Assembly: GCF_009925085.1 (NCBI RefSeq)
Contig: NZ_JAABNR010000003.1
Coordinates: forward strand, 186,001 to 250,000
Direction: 5' to 3'
DNA: 64,000 nucleotides
DNA from: Stagnihabitans tardus
GTDB taxonomy: Bacteria > Pseudomonadota > Alphaproteobacteria > Rhodobacterales > Rhodobacteraceae
Part shown: piece after piece, positions 1 through 13,853 of the stretch
How positions within the stretch are numbered: position 1 is the stretch's first letter
How the letters are laid out: each line of letters starts with the position of its first letter
Made by a program: the position numbers and the translations under genes
Notes under the pieces: generated by a model
What the model was told of the DNA's origin: nothing
The model's database searches: none
Seen by the model: the letters and a program-made list of their open reading frames with translations, nothing else

Positions 1-1525
1 TGAGCCGGTAACCGGTCATCGTCGCGCCGCCGGCCAGGGGGACGAAGCGGGCGGCGATCATCCTTCCGTCCAGGAGCCGCAGGTCCGCGCCCCAGGCCGA
101 ACGCTCCCCGCCCTGGGCCGCGAAATCTTCCAGGTCGGCCCAGACCGGCGAGGGCGCGCAGCGGTCGCGCCAGGTGGCCGAGACGCTGCGGAGCGTCGCC
201 TCGGCCAGGTTGGCCGCAGGGTCCACCCCCCAAAGCCGCGCATAGGCCTCGTTCGACATCACCAGCTGACCGCCCGGAGAGAAGACGGCAATCGCCTCTT
301 CCAGTTGGTCCATGACCGACTGGCTGATCTCCAGGTCGGCACGGAAACGGCGGGTGCGGATCATCTCGGAGGAGATATCCTCGATCAACAGCGCCAGCGC
401 GCCATTCGGATGCGGACGGCCGATCACGCGGTAGGTCTGGCCGCCCGGCAGGCTCCAGGTCTCTTCATACAGGCCCGAGGCGGCGGCGCGCTCCATCTCC
501 ATCAGCTGACGGCGCCAGCTGCGGTAATCCTTGGGCTCGGGGATCATGTTGCGGTCGCGCATCCCGTCCAGCACCGACAAAAGCGAGGGCCGCATGGTCA
601 GGAAATCGGCCGGCAGCCCGGTCAGGACCATCAGCGCGGGGTTGAAGAGCACCAGTTGCCGATGCTGGTCAAAGATCGCCAGGCCGACATGCAGATGGGC
701 AAAGGTCTTGGTCAGGGTGATCATGAAGTCGCGCAGCGCCGTCTCGCAGGTCACCAGGCTGTCGATCGGCGTGGCGAAGAACATCTTCTCGCCCCGCTCT
801 TCATGCGCCGAGACCTCATACCAGACCTCGCCCCCCTCGCGCAGGGTCAGCGTGTGACGCTTGCCTTCGTTCGGCTTGGCGGGGCCCGGGCGCTTGACGG
901 GCTCGGAGAAAAGCCGGGGCAGGGGCCAGGTCAGGTCCTGGTTGGCGGCCAGAACCTCGGAGGCGCGCAGCATATAGGCCTGGTTCGCCCAGATCACATC
1001 GCCATTCGCCCGCTCTTTCCACATCAGGACCGGAGCCTTGGCGGCGGTGTCGCGCAAGAGGTTGATCTCTTCCTCCATCGCGCGCAGCGCCATCACGTCC
1101 TGCCCCCCCGAGGGGACTTGGTGGCTGGGGTCGGTCAGCACGACCCGGGTCAGGCCGCCACGCAACTCTGCCTGCAACATCAAGGCATTGCCCTTCTCCG
1201 GCGCCGAGGTCAGGGTCAGCGACCCATCCAGCGGCAGGCGCAGGAGCCGCGCCTCAAGCTCGGCGAAATGCGGGGTCAGATAGGTCAGGAGACGGGCCCA
1301 GGGGCTGCCTTGCCCCGGGATCGCCGCCAGGAGCGCCCGCGCCCCCGGGGTGCTGTCGATCATCGCCTCTCCGTCAAACAGGAAGACGGTGGCCGAAGTG
1401 TCCTCGGCAAAGACCGAAACCGGGGCGCGGCGTTGGCGCCGCTCCATCCAGGCGATGGCGCCCAGAACGATACCCGCCGTGGCAAGGGCCAGAAGAAAAA
1501 GTTCAGCTTGCAGAAGCCAGTCCAC
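1..1525 (-). CDS. PAS-domain sensor protein, 3' end outside window
   Basis: The minus-strand frame is open from a GTG at 1525 to the left edge, giving about 508 residues and no stop, so the gene is partial. An in-frame TGA lies a few codons upstream, and GGGGG precedes the GTG. Residues 5-25 form one hydrophobic membrane segment (LFLLALATAGIVLGAIAW). Two PAS-like regions follow, at about 265-375 (GLAIFDQHRQLVLFNPAL) and 395-508 (AIAVFSPGGQLVMSNEAY). A histidine-kinase or other output domain is expected beyond the window but is not visible. The gene lies directly downstream of regB on the same strand, 99 bases away, an arrangement common in Rhodobacterales. Its role is probably signal sensing; the ligand is unknown. 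Confidence 0.75.
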   Translation of the reverse strand, partial: MDWLLQAELFLLALATAGIVLGAIAWMERRQRRAPVSVFAEDTSATVFLFDGEAMIDSTPGARALLAAIPGQGSPWARLLTYLTPHFAELEARLLRLPLDGSLTLTSAPEKGNALMLQAELRGGLTRVVLTDPSHQVPSGGQDVMALRAMEEEINLLRDTAAKAPVLMWKERANGDVIWANQAYMLRASEVLAANQDLTWPLPRLFSEPVKRPGPAKPNEGKRHTLTLREGGEVWYEVSAHEERGEKMFFATPIDSLVTCETALRDFMITLTKTFAHLHVGLAIFDQHRQLVLFNPALMVLTGLPADFLTMRPSLLSVLDGMRDRNMIPEPKDYRSWRRQLMEMERAAASGLYEETWSLPGGQTYRVIGRPHPNGALALLIEDISSEMIRTRRFRADLEISQSVMDQLEEAIAVFSPGGQLVMSNEAYARLWGVDPAANLAEATLRSVSATWRDRCAPSPVWADLEDFAAQGGERSAWGADLRLLDGRMIAARFVPLAGGATMTGYRL

Positions 1526-1541
1526 CGGCGCCCCCAGAAAG

Positions 1542-1571
1542 ATTGTCCGATCTTGGAGGCTAGGGAGTCAA
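1542..1571 (-). promoter_or_regulatory. possible promoter of the PAS sensor gene
   Basis: Read on the minus strand, TTGACT (1566-1571) is separated by 18 bases from GACAAT (1542-1547), about 16 bases before the GTG start. The fit to a housekeeping promoter is modest, and read-through from regB is equally possible. Confidence 0.3.
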
Positions 1572-1624
1572 AGTTAATGAACGGTTAAGCGATTAATTCC
1601 CTTTTTTCCTTGATATGCGCGACT

Positions 1625-2995
1625 TCAGATCTGCATGGGTTGATTGTCGCCCAGAACCAGGTGGTCCGGCGCCAGGATGTCCGATTCGGCCCAGACCACC
1701 TCGATCACCGCTCCGCACCGCTCTGGCCGGATGCCGGGGCCCGAGAAGGGATCCGAGCCATTAACGAAGGTCAGGCTCGCCCCCGTCCGCTCGAGCAGCG
1801 TCTTGGCGATGAAAAGACCCAGGCCCATGCCCTCGTAACCCGGCCGCTTCTCCTCCTCGGGCTCGCGACGGGTGCGCACGAAAGGGTCACCGATGCGGTA
1901 GAGGACGTGAAAGGGGAAGCCGTCGCCGTCATCGACGATGCGGACGCGGATCATCCCATGCGAGTGCTCGAGGTCGACCCAGACCTTGGCCACGGCGAAA
2001 TCCACGGCGTTCTGGATCAGGTTGCGCAGGCCGTGGATGACCTCGGGCCGCCGGAGGATGCGCGGTTGCAGGTGCAGGCCGATGTTGTCGACGATCTCGA
2101 CCCTCTTGCCGCGTTCCATATGCGGATCGGCGGCCTCGCGGACCACGGCGATCAAGGGGGCCTGGCGCAGGTGGAGGTCATCCTTCCCCGCCCGACCCAT
2201 GTCGCGCAGGATATCCCGGCAGCGGTCGGCCTGGGCGCGGATCAAGAGCACATCCTCGCGCTGATCACCGGTCAGGTCATCGACCAGCTCGGAGGCCACC
2301 ATCTTGATCGTGGCCAGCGGAGTCCCCAGCTCATGCGCCGCCGCAGCGACCACGCCGCCGAGGTCGGTCAGCTTCTGTTCGCGGGACAGCGCCATCTGCG
2401 TCGCCAGGAGCGCATCGGCCATGGCCCGCATCTCGACCGCGATCCGGCGCGAGAAGATCGCGATGAAGACGGTCCCCGAGACGATGGCCAGCCAGAAGCC
2501 GACCTCGAATTGCAGGGGAAGGACCACGATCTCGCCACTGGCAAAGCGCAAGGGCTTGTAGACGAAGGCCACGGCGGTGACCAATTGCACGGCAAGCCCA
2601 CCGAGGAAGATGGTCGATTTCAGCTCCAGCGCCGAGGCCGAGATCGTGACGGGGACGATGACCAGAAGCAGGAAGGGATTGTCCAGGCCTCCGGTCATGC
2701 CAACCAGGTAGACCAGTTGCAGAAGGTCGAAGAGCAGAAGCAGCATGGCCTCGTGATCGGCCAGGCGACGGTTGCCGGGAAAGACCAGGGTGCTGATGAT
2801 GTTCAACGCCACGGCGGCGCCCACGGCCAGGGCGCATTGGCCGATGGGCAGGATCAGGCCGTAATATGTATGGGCCGCCGTCAGGACCGCGACCTGACCC
2901 GTGATCGCCACCCAGCGCAGCGTCGTCAGCGTGCGCAGCCGGACCCATTCGCCGTCGCTGAAATCGCGGCCCGAGGGCCCGGGCAATTGGTCCAT
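1625..2995 (-). CDS. regB: redox-responsive sensor histidine kinase RegB/PrrB
   Basis: A 456-residue membrane histidine kinase that phosphorylates RegA and controls respiration, photosynthesis, nitrogen and carbon fixation genes in Rhodobacterales. About six membrane helices occupy residues 25-182. The ubiquinone-binding loop GGLDNPF is at 102-108 (GGxxNPF in the family). The phosphoacceptor is His221 in AAHELGTPLATI. The redox-active cysteine of the family corresponds to Cys259 in QADRCRDIL. The ATP-binding domain shows NLIQNAVDFA, DDGDGF and GMGLGLFIAKTLLER. The ATG follows a GGGGGAG ribosome site. It is divergent from senC-regA across 75 bases, the classic arrangement. All residues needed for quinone and thiol sensing are present, so function should be canonical. 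Confidence 0.97.
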   Translation of the reverse strand: MDQLPGPSGRDFSDGEWVRLRTLTTLRWVAITGQVAVLTAAHTYYGLILPIGQCALAVGAAVALNIISTLVFPGNRRLADHEAMLLLLFDLLQLVYLVGMTGGLDNPFLLLVIVPVTISASALELKSTIFLGGLAVQLVTAVAFVYKPLRFASGEIVVLPLQFEVGFWLAIVSGTVFIAIFSRRIAVEMRAMADALLATQMALSREQKLTDLGGVVAAAAHELGTPLATIKMVASELVDDLTGDQREDVLLIRAQADRCRDILRDMGRAGKDDLHLRQAPLIAVVREAADPHMERGKRVEIVDNIGLHLQPRILRRPEVIHGLRNLIQNAVDFAVAKVWVDLEHSHGMIRVRIVDDGDGFPFHVLYRIGDPFVRTRREPEEEKRPGYEGMGLGLFIAKTLLERTGASLTFVNGSDPFSGPGIRPERCGAVIEVVWAESDILAPDHLVLGDNQPMQI

Positions 2996-3070
2996 GGCTC
3001 TCCCCCTCGCGCCTGCCTGCGGGAATTGTTATGGTGCAGGCGCTTCGCAATCAATGCCTTGGAGGCCCTC

Positions 3071-3703
3071 ATGCGCATAGGCTCTGTCATCGCCGTCACG
3101 GCAGCGGTCGGTTTGGCCGCCATGCTGGGCGCCACCAGCTATTACGTCCTGTCGCAGAAGACCGCGGGCGCCTGCCAGGGCGGCGCGGTCATGGGGGCAG
3201 AGATCGGCGGGCCCCTGGCGCTGCATGACGCCACGGGCAAGGCGGTGACCGAGAAAGAGATCCTCTCCGGCGCCTCCCTGGTCTATTTCGGCTATGCCAA
3301 TTGCCCCGATGTCTGCCCGATCGACAATGCCCGCAATGACGAGGTGGCGCGGCTCCTGGCCGAGAAGGGCATCACGCTGACCCCGGTTTTCATCTCGGTC
3401 GACCCGACCCGCGACACGCCCGAGGTCCTGGCCGACTACCAGGCGGCCTTCGACCATGTCCGCACCTATACCGGCACCGAGGCAGAGGTGGCCGCCGCCA
3501 CCAAGGCCTGGCGCGTCTATTTCGAGATCAACCCGGAGGAATTGGCCGCCTACAAGACCGATCCCAGCGGGTTTTACGCGGTCAACCACACCACGATGAC
3601 CTACCTGGCCAAGCCGGGTGGCCAGGTCGTCGCGGTCTTCCAGCGCGAGAATACCGCCGAGGAAATCGCGCAATCCGCGCCTTGTTATCTGGGCGCCGCC
3701 TAG
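3071..3703 (+). CDS. senC: SCO1/SenC/PrrC family copper protein
   Basis: A 210-residue protein anchored by one N-terminal helix (residues 5-26), with a thioredoxin-like SCO domain outside the cytoplasm. The copper-binding CPDVC motif lies in YFGYANCPDVCPIDNA, and the partner histidine is in YAVNHTTMTYL. SCO proteins deliver copper to the CuA or CuB site of cytochrome c oxidases and, in this group, influence signalling through RegB. ATG 3071 was chosen because GGAGG lies at 3061-3065; the longer open frame upstream is only the antisense shadow of regB. It is followed 31 bases later by regA, so the two are probably co-transcribed. The family function is firm; the exact oxidase served is inferred. 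Confidence 0.95.
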   Translation: MRIGSVIAVTAAVGLAAMLGATSYYVLSQKTAGACQGGAVMGAEIGGPLALHDATGKAVTEKEILSGASLVYFGYANCPDVCPIDNARNDEVARLLAEKGITLTPVFISVDPTRDTPEVLADYQAAFDHVRTYTGTEAEVAAATKAWRVYFEINPEELAAYKTDPSGFYAVNHTTMTYLAKPGGQVVAVFQRENTAEEIAQSAPCYLGAA

Positions 3704-3734
3704 GTTAGCCTGCCCCAGACCTTGGGAGGGGCGC

Positions 3735-4286
3735 ATGACCGAAGAGCTGAAAGACATCGGGCCGGATCGCAGTCTGCTTCTGGTGGATGACGACGAGGCT
3801 TTCGTGCGGCGCCTGGCCAAGGCGATGGACAAGCGCGGATTCCAGTCGCAGACCGCGCTCAGCGTGGCCGAGGGCAAGTCCATGGCCCTGGCGCGGCCTC
3901 CGGCCTTTGCGGTGGTCGATCTGCGGCTGGCCGATGGCAATGGGCTGGACGTGGTCCAGACCCTGCACGAACAGCGCCCCGATTGCCGGGTGATCGTGCT
4001 GACCGGCTATGGCGCGATTGCGACGGCGGTGGCGGCGGTCAAGATCGGGGCGATCGATTACCTGTCGAAGCCCGCCGATGCCAATGACATCACCAAGGCG
4101 CTTCTGGAAGAGGGCGAGGATCTGCCCGCCCCGCCCGAAAACCTCATGTCCGCCGACCGCGTGCGCTGGGAACATATCCAGCGCGTCTATGAAATGTGCG
4201 ACCGCAATGTTTCCGAAACCGCGCGGCGGCTTTCGATGCATCGCCGCACCTTGCAGCGCATATTGGCCAAGCGCAGCCCGAAATGA
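3735..4286 (+). CDS. regA: response regulator RegA/PrrA
   Basis: A 183-residue response regulator: receiver domain (about 1-125), a proline linker and a Fis-like DNA-binding helix at the C terminus. The acidic pocket is VDDDEAF (Asp18-20), the phosphoacceptor is Asp62 in VVDLRLADGNG, and the conserved lysine lies in YLSKPADA. The end MHRRTLQRILAKRSPK is characteristic of RegA in Rhodobacterales. It binds DNA to switch between aerobic and anaerobic gene sets when phosphorylated by RegB. GGGAGGGG precedes the ATG at 3735. It sits between senC and hvrA in the standard order. ahcY, often found near this locus in Rhodobacter, is absent here; a LysR gene follows instead. Confidence 0.97.
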   Translation: MTEELKDIGPDRSLLLVDDDEAFVRRLAKAMDKRGFQSQTALSVAEGKSMALARPPAFAVVDLRLADGNGLDVVQTLHEQRPDCRVIVLTGYGAIATAVAAVKIGAIDYLSKPADANDITKALLEEGEDLPAPPENLMSADRVRWEHIQRVYEMCDRNVSETARRLSMHRRTLQRILAKRSPK

Positions 4287-4355
4287 AGTTTGGACTTGTC
4301 ATCCCAAGTCAATATTCTTAACACCGGCATGACCCAACCATGAAAGGACCTGGGA

Positions 4356-4667
4356 ATGGCCGATCTCAATTCGATGACTCTGAAAGAACTGAAAGACCTG
4401 CAGGCCCAGGTCGCCAAGGCGATTGCCTCTTTCGAGGACCGCAAGAAACTTGAAACCCTCGCCAAGCTGCGCGAATTGGCGCGGGCGGATGGGTTTCAGC
4501 TCGAAGAGCTGACCGCTTTGACCACGACCCGCAAAAGGGCGCCCTCGGCGGTGACCTATGCCAATCCGGCCAACAAGTCCGACACCTGGTCGGGCCGGGG
4601 CCGCAAGCCGCGCTGGTTCATCGAGGCCATGGCCGCCGGCAAGAAGCGCGAAGACCTTCTGGTCTAG
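4356..4667 (+). CDS. hvrA: H-NS family trans-acting regulator HvrA
   Basis: A 103-residue nucleoid-associated protein. The N-terminal half is a charged coiled coil (MTLKELKDLQAQVAKAIASF), and the C-terminal half carries the H-NS DNA-contact motif TWSGRGRKPRWF. In Rhodobacter capsulatus HvrA modulates light-harvesting and nitrogen-fixation genes under the Reg system. The ATG at 4356 has AAAGGA about ten bases upstream. It lies 69 bases after regA on the same strand. Its TAG stop overlaps, in a CTAG palindrome, the stop of the convergent LysR gene. Confidence 0.93.
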   Translation: MADLNSMTLKELKDLQAQVAKAIASFEDRKKLETLAKLRELARADGFQLEELTALTTTRKRAPSAVTYANPANKSDTWSGRGRKPRWFIEAMAAGKKREDLLV

Positions 4668-5536
4668 ACCGCCGCCTTCAGCCAGCGGATGAAAGCCTTC
4701 AGCTCCGGGCGTTTCGGCCCGGGGCGGGTGACCATGTAATAGGCCAGGCTGTCATCCTTCAGCCGCCCCACGATTTGCAGCGTGCCGTTCTCGACGTCAT
4801 GTTCGACCAGGGCCTCGGCCTCGACATATAGGCCAAGCCCCGCGCGGGCGGCGGAAAGCGCCAGGTCTTCGGTCGGCACATCGGTGATATTCATCGCATC
4901 GGGTTTCAGGCCAAAGCCCTTGAGCCAGGTCTGAGTCTCCGGCCAGTCCTCGGCCATGATCCAGGGCATGTCCGACATTTCCGCATTCGACAAATCAACC
5001 CGTCCCGCCAGCAATTCCGGAGCCGCCACGATGACGTAATCGGCAGCGGTCAGGAATTCGACATCCAGCCCCGGCCACTTGCCATTGCCAAAGCGGATGC
5101 CCAGGTCGATGCCCTCGCGCCGCAGATCGACGACGCGCTTTTCCGGGTTCAGCGAGAGTTCGATATCGGGATGGCTTTTCCAAAATCCCCCGAGTTTCGG
5201 CATCAGCCAATTCGCCGCAAAGGCCGCCGTCAAGGTCACCCTTAGCGCGGCCCCGGGCCCGCCGCCCTTGACCTCGGCCAGGGCCTGGCCGATGCCCCGA
5301 AAGCCCTCGACCAAGGCCGCCGCCAATTTGGCCCCCTCGGGCGTCAGCGCCATGCCCCGGCCCTCGCGGTAAAGCAACTCGCGGCCCAGGTGATCCTCCA
5401 GCCCGCGCACCTGTTGCGCCACGGCGGCATGGGTCACGTTCAGCTCGCGCGCAGCAAGGGTGAAGCTTTGCAGCCGCGCCGCCGCCTCGAAGGCGCGCAG
5501 AGCGGTCAGGGAGGGGAAACTGCGCCAGTCGATCAT
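4664..5536 (-). CDS. LysR-family transcriptional regulator, GcvA-like
   Basis: A 290-residue LysR protein. The winged helix-turn-helix occupies residues 1-65, with LQSFTLAARELNVTHAAVAQ matching the GcvA subgroup pattern, followed by a periplasmic-binding-like effector domain. The N-terminal SFPSLTALRAFEAAARL is also typical of GcvA-type regulators. No glycine-cleavage genes are nearby, so the target is unknown. The divergent neighbour is a 26-codon ORF starting at 5652. An inverted repeat (TTCCC-N6-GGGAA) in the gap between them is a candidate operator. Convergent overlap with hvrA is four bases. Confidence 0.9.
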   Translation of the reverse strand: MIDWRSFPSLTALRAFEAAARLQSFTLAARELNVTHAAVAQQVRGLEDHLGRELLYREGRGMALTPEGAKLAAALVEGFRGIGQALAEVKGGGPGAALRVTLTAAFAANWLMPKLGGFWKSHPDIELSLNPEKRVVDLRREGIDLGIRFGNGKWPGLDVEFLTAADYVIVAAPELLAGRVDLSNAEMSDMPWIMAEDWPETQTWLKGFGLKPDAMNITDVPTEDLALSAARAGLGLYVEAEALVEHDVENGTLQIVGRLKDDSLAYYMVTRPGPKRPELKAFIRWLKAAV

Positions 5537-5581
5537 GTTTACAAATCCGTAATCTGTTAGCTCAGCTTACATGTCGAAAGA

Positions 5582-5619
5582 TTCCCTGACTTGGGAAATC
5601 CAAGCATTGCGCCTATATC
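5582..5619 (+). promoter_or_regulatory. promoter with overlapping inverted repeat, likely LysR operator
   Basis: TTGGGA (5591-5596), 17 bases, TATATC (5614-5619) fits a housekeeping promoter for the small ORF at 5652. The -35 box is embedded in the perfect dyad TTCCC-TGACTT-GGGAA (5582-5597). LysR regulators commonly bind a T-N11-A dyad, so this is a plausible site for the divergent GcvA-like protein. Binding itself is inferred. Confidence 0.55.
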
Positions 5620-5651
5620 CCTAGCATCGGAAGACCCGAGAGGAGAAGAAA

Positions 5652-5732
5652 ATGTTGAACCTGATTGCAGACGCCCTGATGACCCTGACCCTGATGGGCC
5701 CCCAGCCGAAAGCGCACAAGCGTGGTCGCTGA
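5652..5732 (+). CDS. small ORF, 26 residues, unknown function
   Basis: ATG 5652 to TGA 5730-5732 encodes MLNLIADALMTLTLMGPQ followed by the basic tail PKAHKRGR. AGGAG at 5641-5645 gives a good ribosome site with six bases of spacing, and a TTGGGA-N17-TATATC promoter lies 32 bases upstream of the start codon. The N-terminal 16 residues are hydrophobic and could form an amphipathic or membrane helix; the end is strongly positive. The stop abuts exactly the stop of the convergent HD-hydrolase gene. It is divergent from, and probably controlled by, the LysR gene. It could be a real microprotein or a regulatory leader; no family is recognised. Confidence 0.5.
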   Translation: MLNLIADALMTLTLMGPQPKAHKRGR

Positions 5733-6314
5733 TCAAAGACCGTCCATCAAGGCCAAGTGCCGCTTCACATAGGCCGTCCGCACCTCCGCGGGCGGCCTTA
5801 GTCTTAGGGCGATGCCCCGCAGCGCCTCGGGCGGGCGCCCGAAGAACCGATCCGCCTCATCCTCGCGGAAGCCCGCGATCTGAATGGCCTCCAACCAGGC
5901 CGAGACCTTGTCCGCCGCCTTGATCGCCTTTTTCACCGCGACCGGCAGCACCGCAGGCAGACCAAAGCGGATATGGACCGCCGCCGTCAGCCTTGCATCC
6001 AGCTCTGCATAACCAGGCCCCACCGCCGCCTTGACCGGGCTGATCATGTCGCCGATCACATATTCCGGCGCGTCATGCAGCAGGGCCGCCAGCCGCCAGC
6101 GCGGATCGGCCTCGGTGCGGGCAAAGATCTCTTCGACCAGCAGGGAATGCTCCGCCACCGAATAGGGCCAGTCGCCAAAGGTCTGCCCGTTCCAGCGCGC
6201 GACAAAGGCCAGGCCATGGGCGATGTCCTCGATCTCGATATCGACCGGGGTCGGGTCCAGAAGGTCCAACCGCCGCCCCGAGAGCATCCTTTGCCATGCG
6301 CGCGGCTGTTTCAT
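5733..6314 (-). CDS. HD-domain hydrolase, YfbR-like
   Basis: A 193-residue HD-superfamily phosphohydrolase. The metal-binding residues are visible in YSVAEHSLLVEEIF, in LLHDAPEYVIGDM (the HD pair) and in a later aspartate in KAADKVSAWLEA. The family includes the 5'-deoxynucleotidase YfbR, which dephosphorylates deoxynucleoside monophosphates; the true substrate here is not established. The start was set at ATG 6314 because GGAG lies eight bases upstream; the frame is open for a further 16 codons. It is convergent with the 26-codon ORF. Confidence 0.82.
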   Translation of the reverse strand: MKQPRAWQRMLSGRRLDLLDPTPVDIEIEDIAHGLAFVARWNGQTFGDWPYSVAEHSLLVEEIFARTEADPRWRLAALLHDAPEYVIGDMISPVKAAVGPGYAELDARLTAAVHIRFGLPAVLPVAVKKAIKAADKVSAWLEAIQIAGFREDEADRFFGRPPEALRGIALRLRPPAEVRTAYVKRHLALMDGL

Positions 6315-6464
6315 TTTCTTCTCCGCTTGAGCTTTGGCACATATCTGACGCGAAACGGGCATAAAGGGAATCCCCGGGCCGCTCCGTTCACGCTTTGCGC
6401 GGTCAAAGTCTGGACGCCTTGGCTGCCCTGTGCCATCAAGGCGCCGACCAAGCAGGAGATCGGT

Positions 6465-7778
6465 ATGACTGACCCATGGACACCTTTGTGCCTCGTGGCA
6501 TCATGTGACCTGCAGGCCGCCGCTTGGCCCATGCCGGTCGCCGTGGTCGAGGACGACCTGACCCTGCGGCTGGACGGCGTCGAGCTGGGCATCGACACCC
6601 TGCATCCCCGCCTTGTCGCTGCCCTCAGCCTTTCGCCGAAGGGCGCGGCTCTCCTGGACCGGCTCGAGCTTCACCTGGCCGAGACGGGCCGCACGCTTCA
6701 GGGCCTGCGCCGCGATGTGACCCCGGCAGAGGCGCCCGCCGCGCTGTTTTCCCTGATGGCCGCGGCCCTGGTGCAGTCGCAAGGCCGCGTGGTCAAGCAG
6801 ATGCGCGAGCTGGCGCAGATGCGGCAGTTGACGGAAACCAGCCTCCAGCATTTCGAGCGGCTCGAGGCTTTTGTCTGGCAGACCGCGAAATGCGAACGCA
6901 ACCAGGTCCTGAACCTGGCCGCGCGGGCCGATGGCGCCACGCTGGCCCTGTCCGAGGCCGAGCAGCGCCTGCCGACCGACAGTGTCGGCCTGTCTGACCT
7001 GGCGCTGTGGGTCGCGGCCCCGGCCCAGGGCCAGTTGACCGTCGCGCTGGACCTGATGGAGACCGCCGTGACCGTCGCGACCTGGGTGGTCAGTGACCCC
7101 GGCGCGGGCTGGCTGCGGCTGGCCCTGCCGCGCGCCCTGTCGACCGATGCCCAGACCCCGGTTCTGCGTCTGACCTGGTCCGGTCCGTCGCCGCTTTCGC
7201 TTGGCCTTTCCCTCGATCACCCCGATCCGCGCTTTCAATGCCAGGGCGGGCCGACCCTGGCCCTGAAGCTGTGGAAGTTCATTCCCGGCACCAATGCCCC
7301 CCTGTCGCCCGACTCCCTGCCGCCCAGCGCGGGCCCGACCCGGGGTCGCTGGCTGATCGGTCTTGCGGCGCTGGGCGAGGCGGCGACCCTGGCGGCCGAC
7401 CCCGAGCGGATCGAGTTCCTCGATTGGGCGGGCGGCGTCGTCATGCGCCCCGAGCCTGGCCAGACCCTGGGCCTGCGCCTGCCCGGCCTGGCGCGTCCGG
7501 GCATGGTGCGGCTGCAAGGCATGGTCTCGGTCGAGGGCATCGGCGCCCAGGCCGAGCTGACCTATGCCGTGGCGGCTCCGGGTCAGGAGCCCGACCCGCA
7601 GAGCTGGCAGGTGGTCACCCCGGCGGAACCGGATCAGCTTCATGTCACCCTCCCCCGGCTTGAGGTCGCACAGGACCTGGTCCTGATGGCCCGCGTGCCC
7701 GAAGCGGCCGAACATCCCGCCGTCGTCGTCTTCGAGCGGATCGAGGCCTTTGCCAGCCTGACGGGCCGCGATGACTGA
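6465..7778 (+). CDS. uncharacterised protein of a surface-glycan operon
   Basis: A 437-residue protein beginning MTDPWTPLCLVASCDL, with AGGAG nine bases before the ATG. No signal peptide or membrane segment is seen. Residues about 100-150 are helical (SQGRVVKQMRELAQMRQLTE), and the remainder is rich in beta-strand and proline patterns with two sandwich-like stretches (about 170-250 and 320-430). It may belong to one of the alphaproteobacterial DUF families found beside glycosyltransferases (DUF6212 comes to mind, unverified). It overlaps the next glycosyltransferase by eight bases, so translation is probably coupled. A role in assembling or recognising the glycan is inferred from context only. 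Confidence 0.8.
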   Translation: MTDPWTPLCLVASCDLQAAAWPMPVAVVEDDLTLRLDGVELGIDTLHPRLVAALSLSPKGAALLDRLELHLAETGRTLQGLRRDVTPAEAPAALFSLMAAALVQSQGRVVKQMRELAQMRQLTETSLQHFERLEAFVWQTAKCERNQVLNLAARADGATLALSEAEQRLPTDSVGLSDLALWVAAPAQGQLTVALDLMETAVTVATWVVSDPGAGWLRLALPRALSTDAQTPVLRLTWSGPSPLSLGLSLDHPDPRFQCQGGPTLALKLWKFIPGTNAPLSPDSLPPSAGPTRGRWLIGLAALGEAATLAADPERIEFLDWAGGVVMRPEPGQTLGLRLPGLARPGMVRLQGMVSVEGIGAQAELTYAVAAPGQEPDPQSWQVVTPAEPDQLHVTLPRLEVAQDLVLMARVPEAAEHPAVVVFERIEAFASLTGRDD

Positions 7779-10700
7779 GGCGCCCAGCATTGCCATCGTC
7801 ATCCCGGTCTTCCGGCACTCGGTCCTGCTGATCGAGGCGGTCGAAAGCGCCCTCGCGCAACGCGCGCCCTTCGGCATCCGCATCCTGATCGTCAACGACG
7901 GCTGCCCCCATCCCGAGACGGACGAGACCTGCCGCGCCTTTGCCCGCGCCCATCCCGACCGGATCACCTATCTGAAAAAACAGAACGGCGGGCTTTCCTC
8001 GGCACGCAACCATGGCATCCTTTACGCGCTGGACCACCTGCCCTCGGTCCGGGCGATCTACATGCTGGACGCCGACAACGCCTTGCGCCCCGATTCCATG
8101 GCCCGGGCCATGGCGGCCCTGGACGAGGACCCCGAGGCAGGCTGGATCTATCCCGACATCGACATGGTGGGCCTGTCTTCGGGCCATGACTACTCCGGCC
8201 CCTATTCCGTCCTGCTGCACACCGCGATGAACACCTGCGAGGCGGGGTCACTGATCCGCCGCGAGGTCTTCGAGGCCGGGGTCATGTTCGACGTGACCTT
8301 CAAGGCGGGGTTCGAGGATTGGGATTTCTTCCTCTCCTGCGTCGAGGCGGGCTTCCGCGGCAAGAACATCGAGGGCTTCGGCTTCCTCTACCGCAAGCGC
8401 CCCGAATCGATGCTGGCCGACAGCGAGCGCGAACGCGAGCCGATCCTGGCCCGGATGCGCGCCAAGCACCGGGCGCTGTTTTCCCCCCGTGCCATGCTGG
8501 AGCTGGAGCAGGAAGAGGCGCCGCGCTATGCCTTCTTTCTTGTCGATCTGGACGAGGTCTGGCTGACCACCGATCCCCTGGCCGAGTCAGAGGTCCTGAC
8601 GCCCGAGGACTATTCCCAGCGGCTCTGGCGCGCGCGCTCGGCCCCGGGACGCCATCACTTGCCGCCCCTGACTGTCGTGACCCGGTCCGAGACCCTGGCC
8701 GAGGCCCAGGCGGCGGGGATGCTGCATGGGCTCTTGTGGCAGCTTGAAACCATGGTCGACCAGGTCCACCTGGCGGGGCTCCTGGCGGTTCATGCGCCAA
8801 GCGACCGCATGGGCCTGCACATCCTGCCCGAGGCCAGCCGCAGCCCGGACGAGGCCGCAATGCTGATGCTGACGACCGACCTTTTCATGGCGGCGGCGGG
8901 GGATGCCCAGGGCTCGTGGATGAAGTCGCTGATCTCGGCCGCGCCGCAGCCGCGCGTGGCCCTGGCCCAGGTGACCCTGCCGCCCAGCCTGCCGATCTTC
9001 GCCCTGGGCGAGGGCGGCATGGCGGCGGCGCTTCTGGCCTTCCTCGACGGAATGCGCCAGTCCCACTGGGCCGCCGGAGCGCTTTCCCTGCGCGACTGGC
9101 GCCAGCCCGACCTGCGCCGCCGGGCGGGGTCGCACATGATCCTGCGCCAAAGGCTGGGCCAGCAGCCCAACCTGCCGATGCTGCGCGGCACGGGGCGGCA
9201 CATGGGGCTGATCCTGTCCATCCTGGAATTCGGCGGGGTCGAAAAGGTCGCGCTGAACTTCGCCCGGGCCTTTGCGGCGCGGGGCTGGACCCTGCACCTC
9301 TTCATCCTGGGCAGCCGTGAGGCCGCCGTCAGCCAGGAATGGCGCGACACGATCGCCAGCGTCACCTTCCTCGGCGACCCCGAGTTCTCGCCCTGGGGCG
9401 GCGGCGACCGCAGCTATTTCGGCAACGAGATCCCGCGCTGGGCGAGTTCGGGCAACCATCCCCGCCTGATCGCGCTTCTTCATTGGCTGGATGCGGTGGT
9501 CGATCTTCATTCCGGCGCCGCCGTCGCGGTGATGAGCCAGCTCAAGAAGCTGGGCGCCGTCACGGTCACCTCTTTGCACCTGGCCGACCTGTCGCCGATG
9601 GGGCGGCCCTCGGGCAATCCCTTCCTGACCTTGGCCTATGAACATGCCTTCGACCTTTTCGCGCCCTGCTCCCTGGCGCTGGGCGATTGGCTCCATGCCA
9701 TGGGCATCCCAGAGGACAAGATCACCCCGGCGCCCAATGCGCCCAGCTTCGACATCGCCCCCGACCGGCTTTCGGCGCTGATCGCAGAGCGGTCCGCGCG
9801 TCAGCCGGGGCGGTTGCGGGCCATGTTTCTTGGCCGCCTCGATGCGCAAAAGGGGCTGGAGCGCCTGGGAGAGGTCATCGCCCGCTCTGCCCATCTGCCC
9901 ATCGACTGGCGCGTCATCGGCCGCGCCATCCTGACCGACGGCGCGCCTCCGGTGCCGCCTTCGGTCCTGGCGGTGCTGGAACCGGCCCTGACCACGCCCG
10001 AAGAGCTGACCGCCGCCTTTGCCGAGGCCGATGTCCTTGTCCTGCTCTCGGAATTCGAGGGCCTGCCCCTGACCGTGCTGGAGGCGATGCGCCAGGGCGT
10101 GGTGCCGATTGCGACCGATGTCGGCGCGGTAAGCGAAGTCGTGGTCGATGACGTGACCGGCTGTCTCTTGCCGCTGGAAGAGGCGGTCGAGGGCTGCCTG
10201 TCCGCGCTGGAGTCGCTTGCGAGCGACCCTGCCCGCCTGCGCCGCCTGTCGGACACCGCCACGGCGACCATGGCCAACCGCCACTGGCTGGCCGCGACCG
10301 AAGCCCTGGCCCAGGCCATCGACCGCGTGGGAGCGACCCGCACGGTCGGCTCCGACGCCGATATCCCGCCGCCCGCCCATATCGCACCGCTTTCCGCCGG
10401 CGATGCCGAGATGGAGCGCGTCGACCTGACCCCCGCGCCCTGGGTCGAGCTGTGCCAGAACGGCCCGGACGAAACCGCGCTCTTGCAGCGCTACGAGCTT
10501 TACGCCGGTTTCCTGCAATTCGGCTCGCCCGAGAATGCGGGCGTGGTCTGCGACCTCTCCTGTCACCCGGTGCGCAGCCGCAAGGGCGTCACGACCCGCG
10601 CCATCGCGCTGAAACCCCAGGGGCGGCGGCAGCCCTGGTTCACCTACGAGATGGTCCTGCCCGATGCGCCGCTCACCGAATACATCTCGATGGACTGGAC

Positions 10701-10956
10701 GCTGCGCTATGCCCTGGCCCGGCCGCGCAACCTTTACGCGCAGTTCATGCTGGACGGCGGGGGTGAGAATGTGACCGTCGATGTCGGCACCCTGCGCGGC
10801 ACCGATGCGGGCAGCACGATGAACCTCGTCCTGGCGCTGCGCCAGATCGACCCCGAGGTCCTGCGCCGCCTGACCCGGGTGCGCCTGGTGCTGTCGACCG
10901 ATGGCGAGCTTTTGCCTTTCGACCTGCTGGATTTTGCCATCCACGGTCGCAGGTAA
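7771..10956 (+). CDS. bifunctional glycosyltransferase, GT2 plus GT4 fusion
   Basis: A 1061-residue protein with two glycosyltransferase modules. Residues 1-230 are GT-A family 2: IAIVIPVFRHS, then QNGGLSSARNHG and the metal-binding LDAD near residue 98. Residues about 240-470 are a linker without recognisable motifs. Residues about 478-850 are GT-B family 4: MGLILSILEFGGVEKVALNF, AMFLGRLDAQKGLERL and the nucleotide-sugar motif SEFEGLPLTVLEAMRQG (near 758). The last 190 residues are a separate beta-rich domain of unknown type. One chain could add two sugars in sequence. It overlaps the gene before by eight bases; the next gene begins 86 bases later. The acceptor is unknown. Confidence 0.9.
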   Translation: MTEAPSIAIVIPVFRHSVLLIEAVESALAQRAPFGIRILIVNDGCPHPETDETCRAFARAHPDRITYLKKQNGGLSSARNHGILYALDHLPSVRAIYMLDADNALRPDSMARAMAALDEDPEAGWIYPDIDMVGLSSGHDYSGPYSVLLHTAMNTCEAGSLIRREVFEAGVMFDVTFKAGFEDWDFFLSCVEAGFRGKNIEGFGFLYRKRPESMLADSEREREPILARMRAKHRALFSPRAMLELEQEEAPRYAFFLVDLDEVWLTTDPLAESEVLTPEDYSQRLWRARSAPGRHHLPPLTVVTRSETLAEAQAAGMLHGLLWQLETMVDQVHLAGLLAVHAPSDRMGLHILPEASRSPDEAAMLMLTTDLFMAAAGDAQGSWMKSLISAAPQPRVALAQVTLPPSLPIFALGEGGMAAALLAFLDGMRQSHWAAGALSLRDWRQPDLRRRAGSHMILRQRLGQQPNLPMLRGTGRHMGLILSILEFGGVEKVALNFARAFAARGWTLHLFILGSREAAVSQEWRDTIASVTFLGDPEFSPWGGGDRSYFGNEIPRWASSGNHPRLIALLHWLDAVVDLHSGAAVAVMSQLKKLGAVTVTSLHLADLSPMGRPSGNPFLTLAYEHAFDLFAPCSLALGDWLHAMGIPEDKITPAPNAPSFDIAPDRLSALIAERSARQPGRLRAMFLGRLDAQKGLERLGEVIARSAHLPIDWRVIGRAILTDGAPPVPPSVLAVLEPALTTPEELTAAFAEADVLVLLSEFEGLPLTVLEAMRQGVVPIATDVGAVSEVVVDDVTGCLLPLEEAVEGCLSALESLASDPARLRRLSDTATATMANRHWLAATEALAQAIDRVGATRTVGSDADIPPPAHIAPLSAGDAEMERVDLTPAPWVELCQNGPDETALLQRYELYAGFLQFGSPENAGVVCDLSCHPVRSRKGVTTRAIALKPQGRRQPWFTYEMVLPDAPLTEYISMDWTLRYALARPRNLYAQFMLDGGGENVTVDVGTLRGTDAGSTMNLVLALRQIDPEVLRRLTRVRLVLSTDGELLPFDLLDFAIHGRR

Positions 10957-11042
10957 CCTTGCAACCTGGGGTCTATTGCTCCTCCACCGGGGCGTGGGTA
11001 GCATAGGCCCCGAGTGAGACGGCCCAGAACAGGTAGCCCAAG

Positions 11043-13853
11043 GTGCAGCTTCCGACCCTTCCGCCTGCCGATCACCTGATCTCTCCGGAGATTGCCGACC
11101 CCGATGCCTTCGCCGGGGTCTGCGACTATATCGACGAAGGCGCGGGGTTGCGCGGCTGGCTTGTCCTGCCTTCGGCGCCCGGCGTGGCGCAGCGGCTGGA
11201 GGCCTGGTGTGCCGGTGAGCGCCTGGGCCAGACCGTCGCCATCCTGGACCGTCCCGGGATCGACCGCGCGCTTGGTCGCAAGACCTGGTGCGGCTATCTC
11301 CTGGGCTGGAGCCGTCTTGACCGCCCTGCCCTGGCCCGCATCGTCGCGCAGACCCCCGAGGCCCCGGTCGAGCTGCGCACGGCGAACGAGGGCCTCTGCC
11401 TGCCCTACCTCCCCCTGCCGCCGACCGCCGCCGCGGTCCTTGCCCTTGTCGATGCCAAGACCGATGGCGAGATGCGGCCTGAATTCAAGACCGTGAGGGC
11501 CTGGCACGAAATCGAGGAATCGGGCCTGTTCGACCATGACTGGTATATCCGCCAATATGGCGCCGACACCCAGTATCACCGCCCGCCGCTCTTGCACTAT
11601 ATCCAAACCGGAGAGGCCGAGGGGCGGCGGCCGAACCTTTGCTTCGACCCCGAAGCCTATGCCACCCAGATGGGCCTGCCCCATGGCGAGCCGCGCCTTT
11701 TGCACTATCTGCGCCGGCCGGACATCCGCGTCACGCCGCATTTCGACCCGACCTGGTATCGCCGGACCCAGGCCCCGCTCAGCCCGCAACGGCCCCTGGC
11801 GCATTACCTGGCCCATCGTGGCCAGACCCTGCCCAATCCGACCGTGACGGCCCGGATGCTGGGCGACAACCCGCATGGCCCCGACCGGTACGAGGACTTT
11901 CTGCGGACCTTTCCGCCCAGTCTGAACGAGACGCCCGAAGGCGAGGCGATCCTGGCCGATGCCCTGCGGCTTTTCCCCGAACTGGCCAACCTGCGGCGGC
12001 TGGAGGCTGCGCTCGATGCGCGCGACCTGGCGGCGGCCGAGCGCTTCGCCGGGGCGCTGCGCGACATCGGCCCCCGGGGCTGGGCCCGGATCGCCCTGGC
12101 CCGGCTGGCCCTGATGCAGAACGACCACCGGGGGGCCTCGGCGCTTTTGCACGGGCTGCGCGGCGAGCCCGCGCTTCAGACAGCTGCCGCCGGGCTCTTG
12201 CTCGAGGCCCAGGACCCCGAGGGCGCGGCGCAGATGGTGGAGGGGTTGCAGGATCACGCCTCGCCCGCCCTGGACAGCATCCGCATCCGGCTGGCGGCCT
12301 TGCAGCGCGATCATGCCGGGCTGACCCTGGCGCTGCGCCGGGCGGACCTGCACGGGGTCGAGACCAGCGTCCTGTGCGAGGCGGCCTACAAGCTCGTGCG
12401 GCCCGGGATGCAGCCCGAGCCCGGAGAGGCCGAGGCCGAAGCGCTGCTGCATGCGGCCCTTGCCCCCACTGCGGCCGAGAACCCCTTTGCCCTGCAAGCC
12501 CGCATCCACATGTATCTTCAGCGCCGCCAGCTTTCGGACCTGGCCGCGCTCTTGACCGAGGCCGAGACGCAGCCCGTCGCCGCCAAGCTGAACCTGGCCT
12601 CGCGGCGGCTCGAGATGCTGTTCCTTTCGGGCCATCTCGCCGAGGCCCTGGCGCTTTACCGCGAAAAACTGGCCGGGATGCGTCTGGACAATGCCGATGG
12701 CATCATCGCGCTGCGGCTCCTGTCCGAGGTCAAGGCCTGGGACGAGGCCGGGGCGGTGATCCTGTCGCACCTGGCCCAGGGCCATGGCTTTGGCGAGACG
12801 GTGTTTCATGCCATGCGGGCGCTGCGCAAGGCGGGGCTGCATGACCGCGTCCTGGCCCTGGCCGCGCCGATGGGTCCGGATCACGACCACTTCATCGACC
12901 TGGTTCGGCTGGACCGCGACCTGATCGCCTCGGCCAAGGGTCAGGCGCCGGTGACCGATGCCCTGCGCTGGCTCTCGGGGGCAAAGGCGCCTGACTCCGG
13001 CGGGGTGATCTATCTTTGCGCCGACCGGCGCTATTTCCTGTCGCTTCTGACCTGCCTGGCCTCGGTCTTCGGTCAACCGGTCCAAAGCGACGCCCCGGTC
13101 TATGTCTTTCTGGACTCCGACGTGCCGCCCGACTGGCCCCCCGCGATCCAGACCCTGGCCCAGCGGTTCGGCCGCGAGGTCACGATCGTCTCCGAGGCCG
13201 ATTTCGTGACCGAAGGCGTGGCGCTGAAGGTCGAGCTTGGCTTCTTTGCGGCGGGCACCGGCCTGTCGCGGGCCGCCTATTACCGGCTTTACGCCGCGCG
13301 CTGGCTGATGGCGCTGAACCGCTTCTCGCGGGCGCTTTACGTCGACACTGACATCATCTGCCGGGGCGACCTGACGCCGCTGGTGACGCTGGACCTGGGC
13401 GGCGCCCCCCTGGCCGCGCGGGTCGAGGAAGAGGGCCCCGAGGTCCGGGCCGCCGCCACAAGGAACAACATCGACCCGGCGCGCTATTTCAACTCGGGCG
13501 TGCTGGCGATGGATTTCACCCATCCCAGGCTGGGCCCCGGCCTCGCCCGGGCCATCGAGCTGTCAGAGAAAGAGCCCGACCGGCTGATCTTCCACGACCA
13601 ATGCGCGCTGAACATCGCCTTCCGCGCCGCCGATCTGCCGCCGCAATGGAACTTCTTCCTGCGCCCCTTCCGGCCCCAGAACGGCCAGGTCCAGGACGGC
13701 ATCCTCCTGCACTATCTTGACCGCCCCAAGCCCTGGGACATCACCTTCTGGCGCAACTTCCGCGAGGAGTGGCGGGTCTGGGCGCTTTTCCTGGGCCAGC
13801 TCTTGCCGCCGCAGGTCTTTACCGACATGCTGGCCGCCGCCAACGAGGTTTGA
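11043..13853 (+). CDS. GT8-family glycosyltransferase with DWY-type N-terminal repeats
   Basis: A 936-residue protein. Residues about 150-270 contain repeated short modules of the kind seen in polysaccharide proteins (FDHDWYIRQYG, LLHYIQTGEAEGRRPN, FDPTWYRRT). Residues about 290-640 are helical and TPR-like. The C-terminal part (about 645-935) is a glycosyltransferase family 8 domain: GGVIYLCADRRYFLSLLTCL, the metal-binding DTD in ALYVDTDIICRGDL (near 764), RYFNSGVLAMDF and HDQCALN. GT8 enzymes are retaining transferases that use UDP-glucose or UDP-galactose. The start is GTG 11043; its ribosome site is weak, so the N terminus is uncertain by some residues. It is followed after three bases by the sulfotransferase. 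Confidence 0.88.
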   Translation: MQLPTLPPADHLISPEIADPDAFAGVCDYIDEGAGLRGWLVLPSAPGVAQRLEAWCAGERLGQTVAILDRPGIDRALGRKTWCGYLLGWSRLDRPALARIVAQTPEAPVELRTANEGLCLPYLPLPPTAAAVLALVDAKTDGEMRPEFKTVRAWHEIEESGLFDHDWYIRQYGADTQYHRPPLLHYIQTGEAEGRRPNLCFDPEAYATQMGLPHGEPRLLHYLRRPDIRVTPHFDPTWYRRTQAPLSPQRPLAHYLAHRGQTLPNPTVTARMLGDNPHGPDRYEDFLRTFPPSLNETPEGEAILADALRLFPELANLRRLEAALDARDLAAAERFAGALRDIGPRGWARIALARLALMQNDHRGASALLHGLRGEPALQTAAAGLLLEAQDPEGAAQMVEGLQDHASPALDSIRIRLAALQRDHAGLTLALRRADLHGVETSVLCEAAYKLVRPGMQPEPGEAEAEALLHAALAPTAAENPFALQARIHMYLQRRQLSDLAALLTEAETQPVAAKLNLASRRLEMLFLSGHLAEALALYREKLAGMRLDNADGIIALRLLSEVKAWDEAGAVILSHLAQGHGFGETVFHAMRALRKAGLHDRVLALAAPMGPDHDHFIDLVRLDRDLIASAKGQAPVTDALRWLSGAKAPDSGGVIYLCADRRYFLSLLTCLASVFGQPVQSDAPVYVFLDSDVPPDWPPAIQTLAQRFGREVTIVSEADFVTEGVALKVELGFFAAGTGLSRAAYYRLYAARWLMALNRFSRALYVDTDIICRGDLTPLVTLDLGGAPLAARVEEEGPEVRAAATRNNIDPARYFNSGVLAMDFTHPRLGPGLARAIELSEKEPDRLIFHDQCALNIAFRAADLPPQWNFFLRPFRPQNGQVQDGILLHYLDRPKPWDITFWRNFREEWRVWALFLGQLLPPQVFTDMLAAANEV

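Follow-up and report, generated by a model that had tools for sequence, protein, structure and literature searches.

We analysed a 64,000-nucleotide stretch of the Stagnihabitans tardus genome (positions 186,001 to 250,000 of contig NZ_JAABNR010000003.1; hereafter the window), in which a regB/senC-regA-hvrA locus (the Reg locus) is followed by a gene for a LysR-type regulator, a short open reading frame (ORF) for a microprotein divergent from it, and a gene for an HD-domain hydrolase (HD). Comparison with relatives leads us to think it likely that LysR and the microprotein constitute an ancestral, self-contained module beside an ordinary Reg locus, and that the rearrangement of this neighbourhood is a break between HD and ahcY, which was found in three of 16 genomes compared for the window's genus (its own included). 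The comparisons show LysR and the microprotein to be present, absent and relocated together, and to share a conserved, operator-like intergenic sequence. The microprotein apparently belongs to an undescribed family that recurs beside LysR in many related bacteria.

A scan of named genomes with RegA was used to select the best 80 of 589 loci, which were compared with the window genes by tblastn. RegB was found in all 80 loci, SenC in 79, HD in 67 and hvrA in 16. ahcY accompanied HD in 65 of the 67 loci, the contigs of the other two (L046 and L076) stopping at or within HD, and the spacing between the two genes was less than 2 kb in 62 of the 65 and about 2.1 kb in the remaining three. LysR (at least 40% identity) was present in 15 of the 80 loci, between regA/hvrA and HD or in that place; HD was missing from two of these (L009, where the contig ends, and L053). 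The orientation of LysR relative to regA was that of the window in 14 of the 15, the exception being L020, in which regA is turned. The full order hvrA-LysR-HD-ahcY was found in L002, L003, L013 and L025, and in two loci from the window's genus (L086 and L088) LysR adjoins hvrA and is followed by HD and ahcY. As LysR occupies the same slot in 15 of 80 loci with ahcY lying beyond HD, we conclude that LysR and the microprotein are ancestral and did not replace ahcY. The preliminary description of this region had placed the two genes where ahcY should be and had proposed a synteny comparison; the same right flank was largely found in relatives, with LysR in its slot in these 15 named loci and in 10 of the 16 genomes of the genus. 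A replacement of ahcY by newly inserted LysR and microprotein genes in the window's lineage would agree with the absence of ahcY from this neighbourhood and its location 138 kb away. However, the arrangement of hvrA-LysR followed by HD and ahcY in the loci just named refutes this idea, which we regard as extremely improbable.

What did change is the position of ahcY. A single AdoHcyase match was found in the window genome, at G000:C3:52610-53995, 138 kb from HD. HD and ahcY were adjacent (at most about 2.1 kb) in 13 of the 16 genomes of the genus and apart in three, the window genome, G006 and G011. In all three a DUF6212 gene lies beside HD, and a common gene of 570 codons lies upstream of ahcY. 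The 3' side of ahcY is collinear with G002, G003 and G005, and the 5' side is different. HD and ahcY have the same orientation, and are 138 kb apart in the window genome, 97 kb apart in G006 and on separate contigs in G011. A single inversion that broke the DNA between HD and ahcY would fit this arrangement; neither a second breakpoint nor the order before the inversion was seen among the 16 genomes, in which the 570-codon gene occurs only in the three. Thus, the earlier view of a rearranged neighbourhood holds for the departure of ahcY and fails for LysR and the microprotein, which are not the rearranged part. The loss of ahcY from this neighbourhood is real but small, and it is not unique. 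HD was absent from 13 of the 80 named loci, four of them on short contigs and nine with a right flank of at least 8 kb, and these nine (L007, L014, L017, L031, L053, L059, L070, L071 and L079) contained neither HD nor ahcY in that flank; the Reg-HD-ahcY order is broken in several lineages.

Two observations concern the genes on either side of this break. In the window, the place expected for ahcY is taken by the DUF6212 gene and a large glycosyltransferase-like gene (6465-10956), both of which also follow HD in G006 and G011. ahcY itself now stands next to the 570-codon gene and chemotaxis-like genes (CheA-, CheW- and MCP-like, as read from translations; L083, 10130-17726), surroundings that are common to two sister genomes.

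The distribution of the microprotein was examined with an N-terminal profile of the first 15 residues, which was trained on 18 sequences chosen by eye and scored on the LysR loci with enough upstream DNA. A pass was a score of at least 0 with an ORF start 80-130 nucleotides from the LysR start; the 99% quantile for random ATG ORFs was -9.6. A divergent ORF passed in 81 of 92 LysR upstream regions, with a spacing of 85-123 nucleotides, and the 18 training loci were among those scored, which makes this count partly circular. LysR matches left unscored had too little upstream DNA (L009, L093, L096 and one in L187) or fewer than 150 aligned residues (L094, for example). Alignment of 64 members gave the consensus MLxIxAxALxxATR followed by a variable tail, and member lengths ranged from 26 to 91 residues with a median of 52. 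A W-x-[APV]-P-x-x-[WY] pattern was present in nine of 83 sequences. The small ORF of L172, L181 and L188 has another N-terminus, with a W-x-AP-x-x-W-like tail in L172 and L188, as would be seen if the two halves evolved independently.

The microprotein was present in all 13 named loci having both LysR and HD, and in none of 54 having HD without LysR. With the profile retrained on all 81 passing sequences, which adds to the circularity, the best score in loci without LysR was 2.7, compared to at least 21.8 in loci with LysR. A profile hidden Markov model (HMM) built from the 64 members gave one strong match in each of the 10 LysR-bearing genomes of the genus (E-values from 3.5e-13 to 5.6e-6), nine of which were themselves profile members; the outsider, G009, matched at an E-value of 7.7e-11. 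The next best match anywhere had an E-value of 0.007, and the six genomes without LysR gave nothing better than 0.02. In this search 150 first-look candidates were scored in most genomes.

Searches of Pfam and NCBIfam with eight typed members at an E-value of 1 or less returned two stray Pfam matches and no NCBIfam match, and at 0.1 or less all 64 members yielded only single-member matches to unrelated families. The window peptide itself matched no family at an E-value of 1 or less, and a viral fold match was looked for and none was found. No published description of the microprotein was found by literature searches on hvrB, on VtlR/LysR and small proteins, or on LysR-associated small proteins of Rhodobacter, the Rhodobacteraceae or the DUF1127 type.

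Conservation of the ORF is of the coding type. The ratio of nonsynonymous to synonymous differences (pN/pS) over codons 2-14 was 0.62 in frame, compared to 0.84 and 1.35 in the shifted frames, values that are indicative at a pS of 0.65, which is near saturation. The hydrophobic moment of the N-terminal 14 residues was 0.43, compared to 0.25 (standard deviation 0.12) for shuffled sequences, and an AlphaFold model of a 55-residue relative predicted helices at residues 2-12 and 22-52 (mean predicted local distance difference test score 82, predicted template modelling score 0.41). At the level of sequence, these data show coding-type conservation and an amphipathic N-terminus. As the ORF is short and its tail variable, one might instead read the conserved element as regulatory RNA or DNA, or as a leader peptide, and not as a functional small protein. 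In the same direction, a candidate RNA motif, HRC-8-4, has been reported immediately upstream of hvrB, a LysR gene considered below, at cco loci (PMC8632094, in the part available to us). However, nothing lies downstream of the ORF on the same strand in the window, where HD is convergent and abutting; the in-frame substitutions are biased to synonymous ones; and the property that is conserved is the amphipathic peptide N-terminus. In addition, Rfam gave no match at an E-value of 1 or less in window positions 1-12000 and none at gathering scores in seven loci. We consider an RNA or leader function quite unlikely.

The intergenic region between LysR and the microprotein contains an operator consensus, TG[TA]TAG-N5-CT[AT]ACA, near the LysR start. 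This consensus was found with at most two mismatches in 42 of the 81 regions, compared to five of 1620 shuffles. A second element, GAAA...TTCCTGACTCG, comes after the operator consensus across the LysR regions; the corresponding sequence in the window is GAAA...TTCCCTGACTTG. A strict pattern combining the operator and the second element occurred once in the window genome, at 5557-5591. This pattern is specific more than it is sensitive, and LysR may have additional targets whose sites are weaker.

Several observations weigh against LysR and the microprotein forming a single conserved module, in addition to the circularity of the profile tests, the overlap between HMM members and positives, and the near saturation of pS. 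Eleven of the 92 upstream regions failed the profile. Among them, L049 contains a non-orthologous LysR (28% identity), the second LysR copy in L118 has nothing in this place, L173 and L178 have homologous-looking ORFs with low scores, and in L197 the ORF lies at 186 nucleotides. A different small ORF is present at about the usual distance in L172, L181, L188 and L196, and no such small ORF was found upstream of LysR in L109 or in L205, the latter being one of the ten ccoG-side loci described below. The window copy is among the shortest of the family, and the consensus residues A12 and R14 are missing from it. As for the operator, 39 of the 81 regions fell outside the two-mismatch fit to the 17-bp sequence. 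The strict pattern also occurred at the LysR gene of G004, G006 and G011, on the opposite strand in G011, and therefore finds four of the 10 LysR-bearing genomes of the genus and misses six; a backwards control pattern gave one match, in G008. Scans of window positions 4600-6500 for sigma-70 promoters and terminators gave no match near the microprotein ORF.

In the family, LysR has a match at an E-value of 1e-50 or less in 150 of 295 genomes. We read 30 family loci that were returned (two overlapping the earlier set) and 40 further regions picked down the list. L120 and 24 of the 40 further regions contained no Reg-locus gene, HD or ahcY within the approximately 1.4 kb fetched per side. As judged by motifs chosen by eye, 10 of these 25 LysR loci adjoin ccoG, eight of them with ccoP opposite, and another four adjoin a dapA, smpB or sulfurtransferase gene. 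One CcoG and one CcoP fragment were checked against NCBIfam; both gave strong E-values, with scores under the full-length cut-offs. According to the available part of PMC8632094, the LysR-family gene hvrB has been inserted in Rhodobacterales between the ccoNOQP and ccoGHIS clusters. By this location we infer that the LysR clade of the window corresponds to what that source calls hvrB, the 80 named loci including no R. capsulatus sequence. In the eight loci with LysR between ccoP and ccoG (L193, L198, L201, L203, L205, L207, L208 and L209), LysR occupies the space reported for HRC-8-4 in that part of the same source.

One might suppose that ahcY is the main target of LysR and that the divergent promoter yields the microprotein only as a by-product. 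The title of Buggy et al. (1994) on R. capsulatus hvrB, as cited in the accessible part of PMC8632094, points to this, and HD and ahcY lie next to LysR in most named LysR loci. However, a profile of the operator found nothing comparable in the HD-ahcY gaps shorter than 1500 bases, the best score being 5.7, in a locus without LysR, compared to 16-49 for the training loci, and no comparable site was found upstream of the window genome's own ahcY. The 25 LysR loci away from the Reg locus, HD and ahcY also argue against this explanation. ahcY may have a site of a different kind, and we consider regulation of ahcY as the main role of LysR to be unlikely on balance.

The association of LysR with small proteins was also followed in the class, in which 78 of 289 genomes have a LysR match. 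Of 29 new class loci that were read, nine contained a microprotein-like ORF, six of them outside the family (f82 twice, f16, f96, f155 and f105). A single split in the LysR tree, with 100/99 support, sets 19 rows apart from 103 others, almost all of which have the microprotein. Eight of the 19 were labelled DUF1127 (five confirmed, two weak and one not searched), 10 had neither small protein, and L221, at the base, was microprotein-like. The 103-row clade includes 23 rows labelled 'other', among which are seven duplicate loci of the same genus, whose first copies were microprotein-positive, and two with too little upstream DNA. A count of label changes on this tree overstates the scatter, and we relied on the clade split alone. 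When plasmids were searched with the LysR protein, a single record was returned, from Ruegeria; this 36.9% match was judged uninformative.

Returning to LysR and the microprotein as a self-contained module, a mechanism can be outlined. LysR would bind the predicted operator and dampen its own promoter. In response to an inducing signal, LysR would switch the microprotein on by contact with the second element, close to the microprotein promoter. The microprotein, with its amphipathic N-terminal helix and variable, often charged tail, would probably act on a protein or membrane partner. Our best guess is that the pathway is probably oxygen or redox control, because the module is located at Reg and cbb3-oxidase (cco) loci; contact of the microprotein with RegB is speculation only. 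By analogy with the action of DUF1127 proteins on kinases elsewhere, hvrB might chiefly control the microprotein, which would then modulate redox signalling through RegB or cbb3-oxidase maturation. We hold this to be doubtful; if it were true, effects ascribed to hvrB would run via an overlooked peptide.

The Reg locus itself is ordinary. The complete regB/senC-regA-hvrA locus was confirmed at exactly the coordinates given previously, with RegB and RegA above the NCBIfam equivalog cut-offs and the SCO1-SenC and Histone_HNS domains above those of Pfam (Table 1). senC and the hvrA-type gene are co-oriented with regA, and regB is divergent. The RegB translation contains GGLDNPF, HELGTPL and a cysteine in DRCRDILR, which we take to be the quinone loop, the H-box and the redox-cysteine region, respectively. 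To the left of regB, the PAS gene extends about 60 bases past the edge of the window and encodes a product of 529 residues with a hydrophobic N-terminal segment, its reading frame being taken also from L082. A Pfam search of 507 of these residues found no output domain, kinase included. This gene adjoins regB, at 700 bases or less in each case, in 74 of the 80 named loci. Of the six others, three (L030, L061 and L063) are on contigs that start at or inside regB and three (L023, L060 and L068) are truly without a match. Gene order makes a functional tie between the PAS gene and the Reg system plausible; that the PAS protein feeds this system, as had been suggested, is only possible.

Table 1. 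Features of the window discussed in the text
Feature	Position	Strand	Basis or remark
PAS-domain protein gene, GTG start at 1525	1-1525	-	PAS_7 and PAS_8 (Pfam)
regB, redox sensor histidine kinase	1625-2995	-	NF045988 equivalog, 668.9 bits (cut-off 570)
senC, SCO1/SenC copper chaperone, CPDVCP motif	3071-3703	+	PF02630 above Pfam cut-off
regA, response regulator	3735-4286	+	NF033791 ActR/PrrA/RegA equivalog, 311.3 bits (cut-off 250)
hvrA, H-NS-type protein	4356-4667	+	PF00816 (Histone_HNS) above Pfam cut-off
LysR-type regulator, GcvA-like	4664-5536	-	HTH_1 and LysR_substrate above cut-off; clade also found between ccoP and ccoG
Predicted LysR-type operator, TGTTAG-N5-CTTACA (T-N11-A)	5555-5571		Conserved-sequence comparison
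Putative second element, activation-site-like	5572-5593		Conserved-sequence comparison
Shine-Dalgarno-like sequence of the microprotein, GAGAGGAGAAG	5639-5649	+	Sequence reading
Microprotein, MLNLIADALMTLTLMGPQPKAHKRGR	5652-5732	+	26 residues; small-protein family divergent from LysR
HD-domain hydrolase (YfbR-like)	5733-6362	-	Usually adjoins ahcY in relatives; stop codon abuts that of the microprotein
Rearrangement breakpoint, ahcY expected	6363-6464		DUF6212 gene instead
DUF6212 gene	about 6465-7778	+	Occupies the expected place of ahcY

These results correct the reading of the Reg neighbourhood, in which LysR is ancestral and ahcY is the gene that moved. They also add a small-protein family, matched here by no Pfam or NCBIfam model, that occurs in the Rhodobacteraceae and in a few further families of alphaproteobacteria. 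The microprotein is the part of the locus worth following, and its close pairing with LysR at oxygen-control loci gives a candidate target for a regulator known mainly by name.

In the classical arrangement, a LysR gene and its divergent target share an intergenic region with a T-N11-A operator and a second site nearer the target promoter. The layout in the window is alike in the shared intergenic region, the T-N11-A operator and the second site. It differs in that the classical target is an enzyme or transporter, whereas the divergent gene here encodes a small protein of 26-91 residues from no known family. Compared with the RegB/RegA (PrrB/PrrA, ActS/ActR) locus, all four genes, their order and their orientation match those of the window; the genes themselves are alike, and the sole difference is that the more distal ahcY has moved off. 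hvrB of Rhodobacterales resembles the LysR clade of the window in lying beside hvrA, HD and ahcY and elsewhere between ccoP and ccoG. The two differ in that the available part of PMC8632094 does not mention a divergent microprotein in its description of hvrB, and in that no operator-like site was seen at ahcY in the stretches scanned.

Regulation of tiny proteins by LysR-type regulators has parallels elsewhere. According to the accessible part of PMC7486931, VtlR of Brucella, like the window regulator a member of the LysR family, activates three small-protein genes. LsrB, which we group with VtlR among the LysR regulators of Rhizobiales, is described in the available section of PMC11975290 as unique to that order and in an operon with trxB, whereas the window LysR is flanked by hvrA and HD. 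DUF1127 genes are divergent from LysR in the same slot in other alphaproteobacterial families (L224, L232, L233, L237 and L238); of seven typed DUF1127 candidates, five were above the Pfam cut-off and two were weak. The window family was itself tried as DUF1127 (PF06568) and rejected, as none of the 64 members matched at an E-value of 0.1 or less, and the profile-profile probability of kinship with a six-row DUF1127 alignment was 0.3%. DUF1127 proteins are reported to bind PhoR, a sensor kinase, in both Agrobacterium and Escherichia coli; likewise, YjiS of Salmonella binds SsrA, and CcaF1 of Rhodobacter binds RNA (PMC12501420, in the part available). The DUF1127 and VtlR parallels are ones of analogy, not homology. 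The pairing of distant LysR relatives with DUF1127 genes suggests that LysR regulators dedicated to tiny proteins may be more general in alphaproteobacteria.

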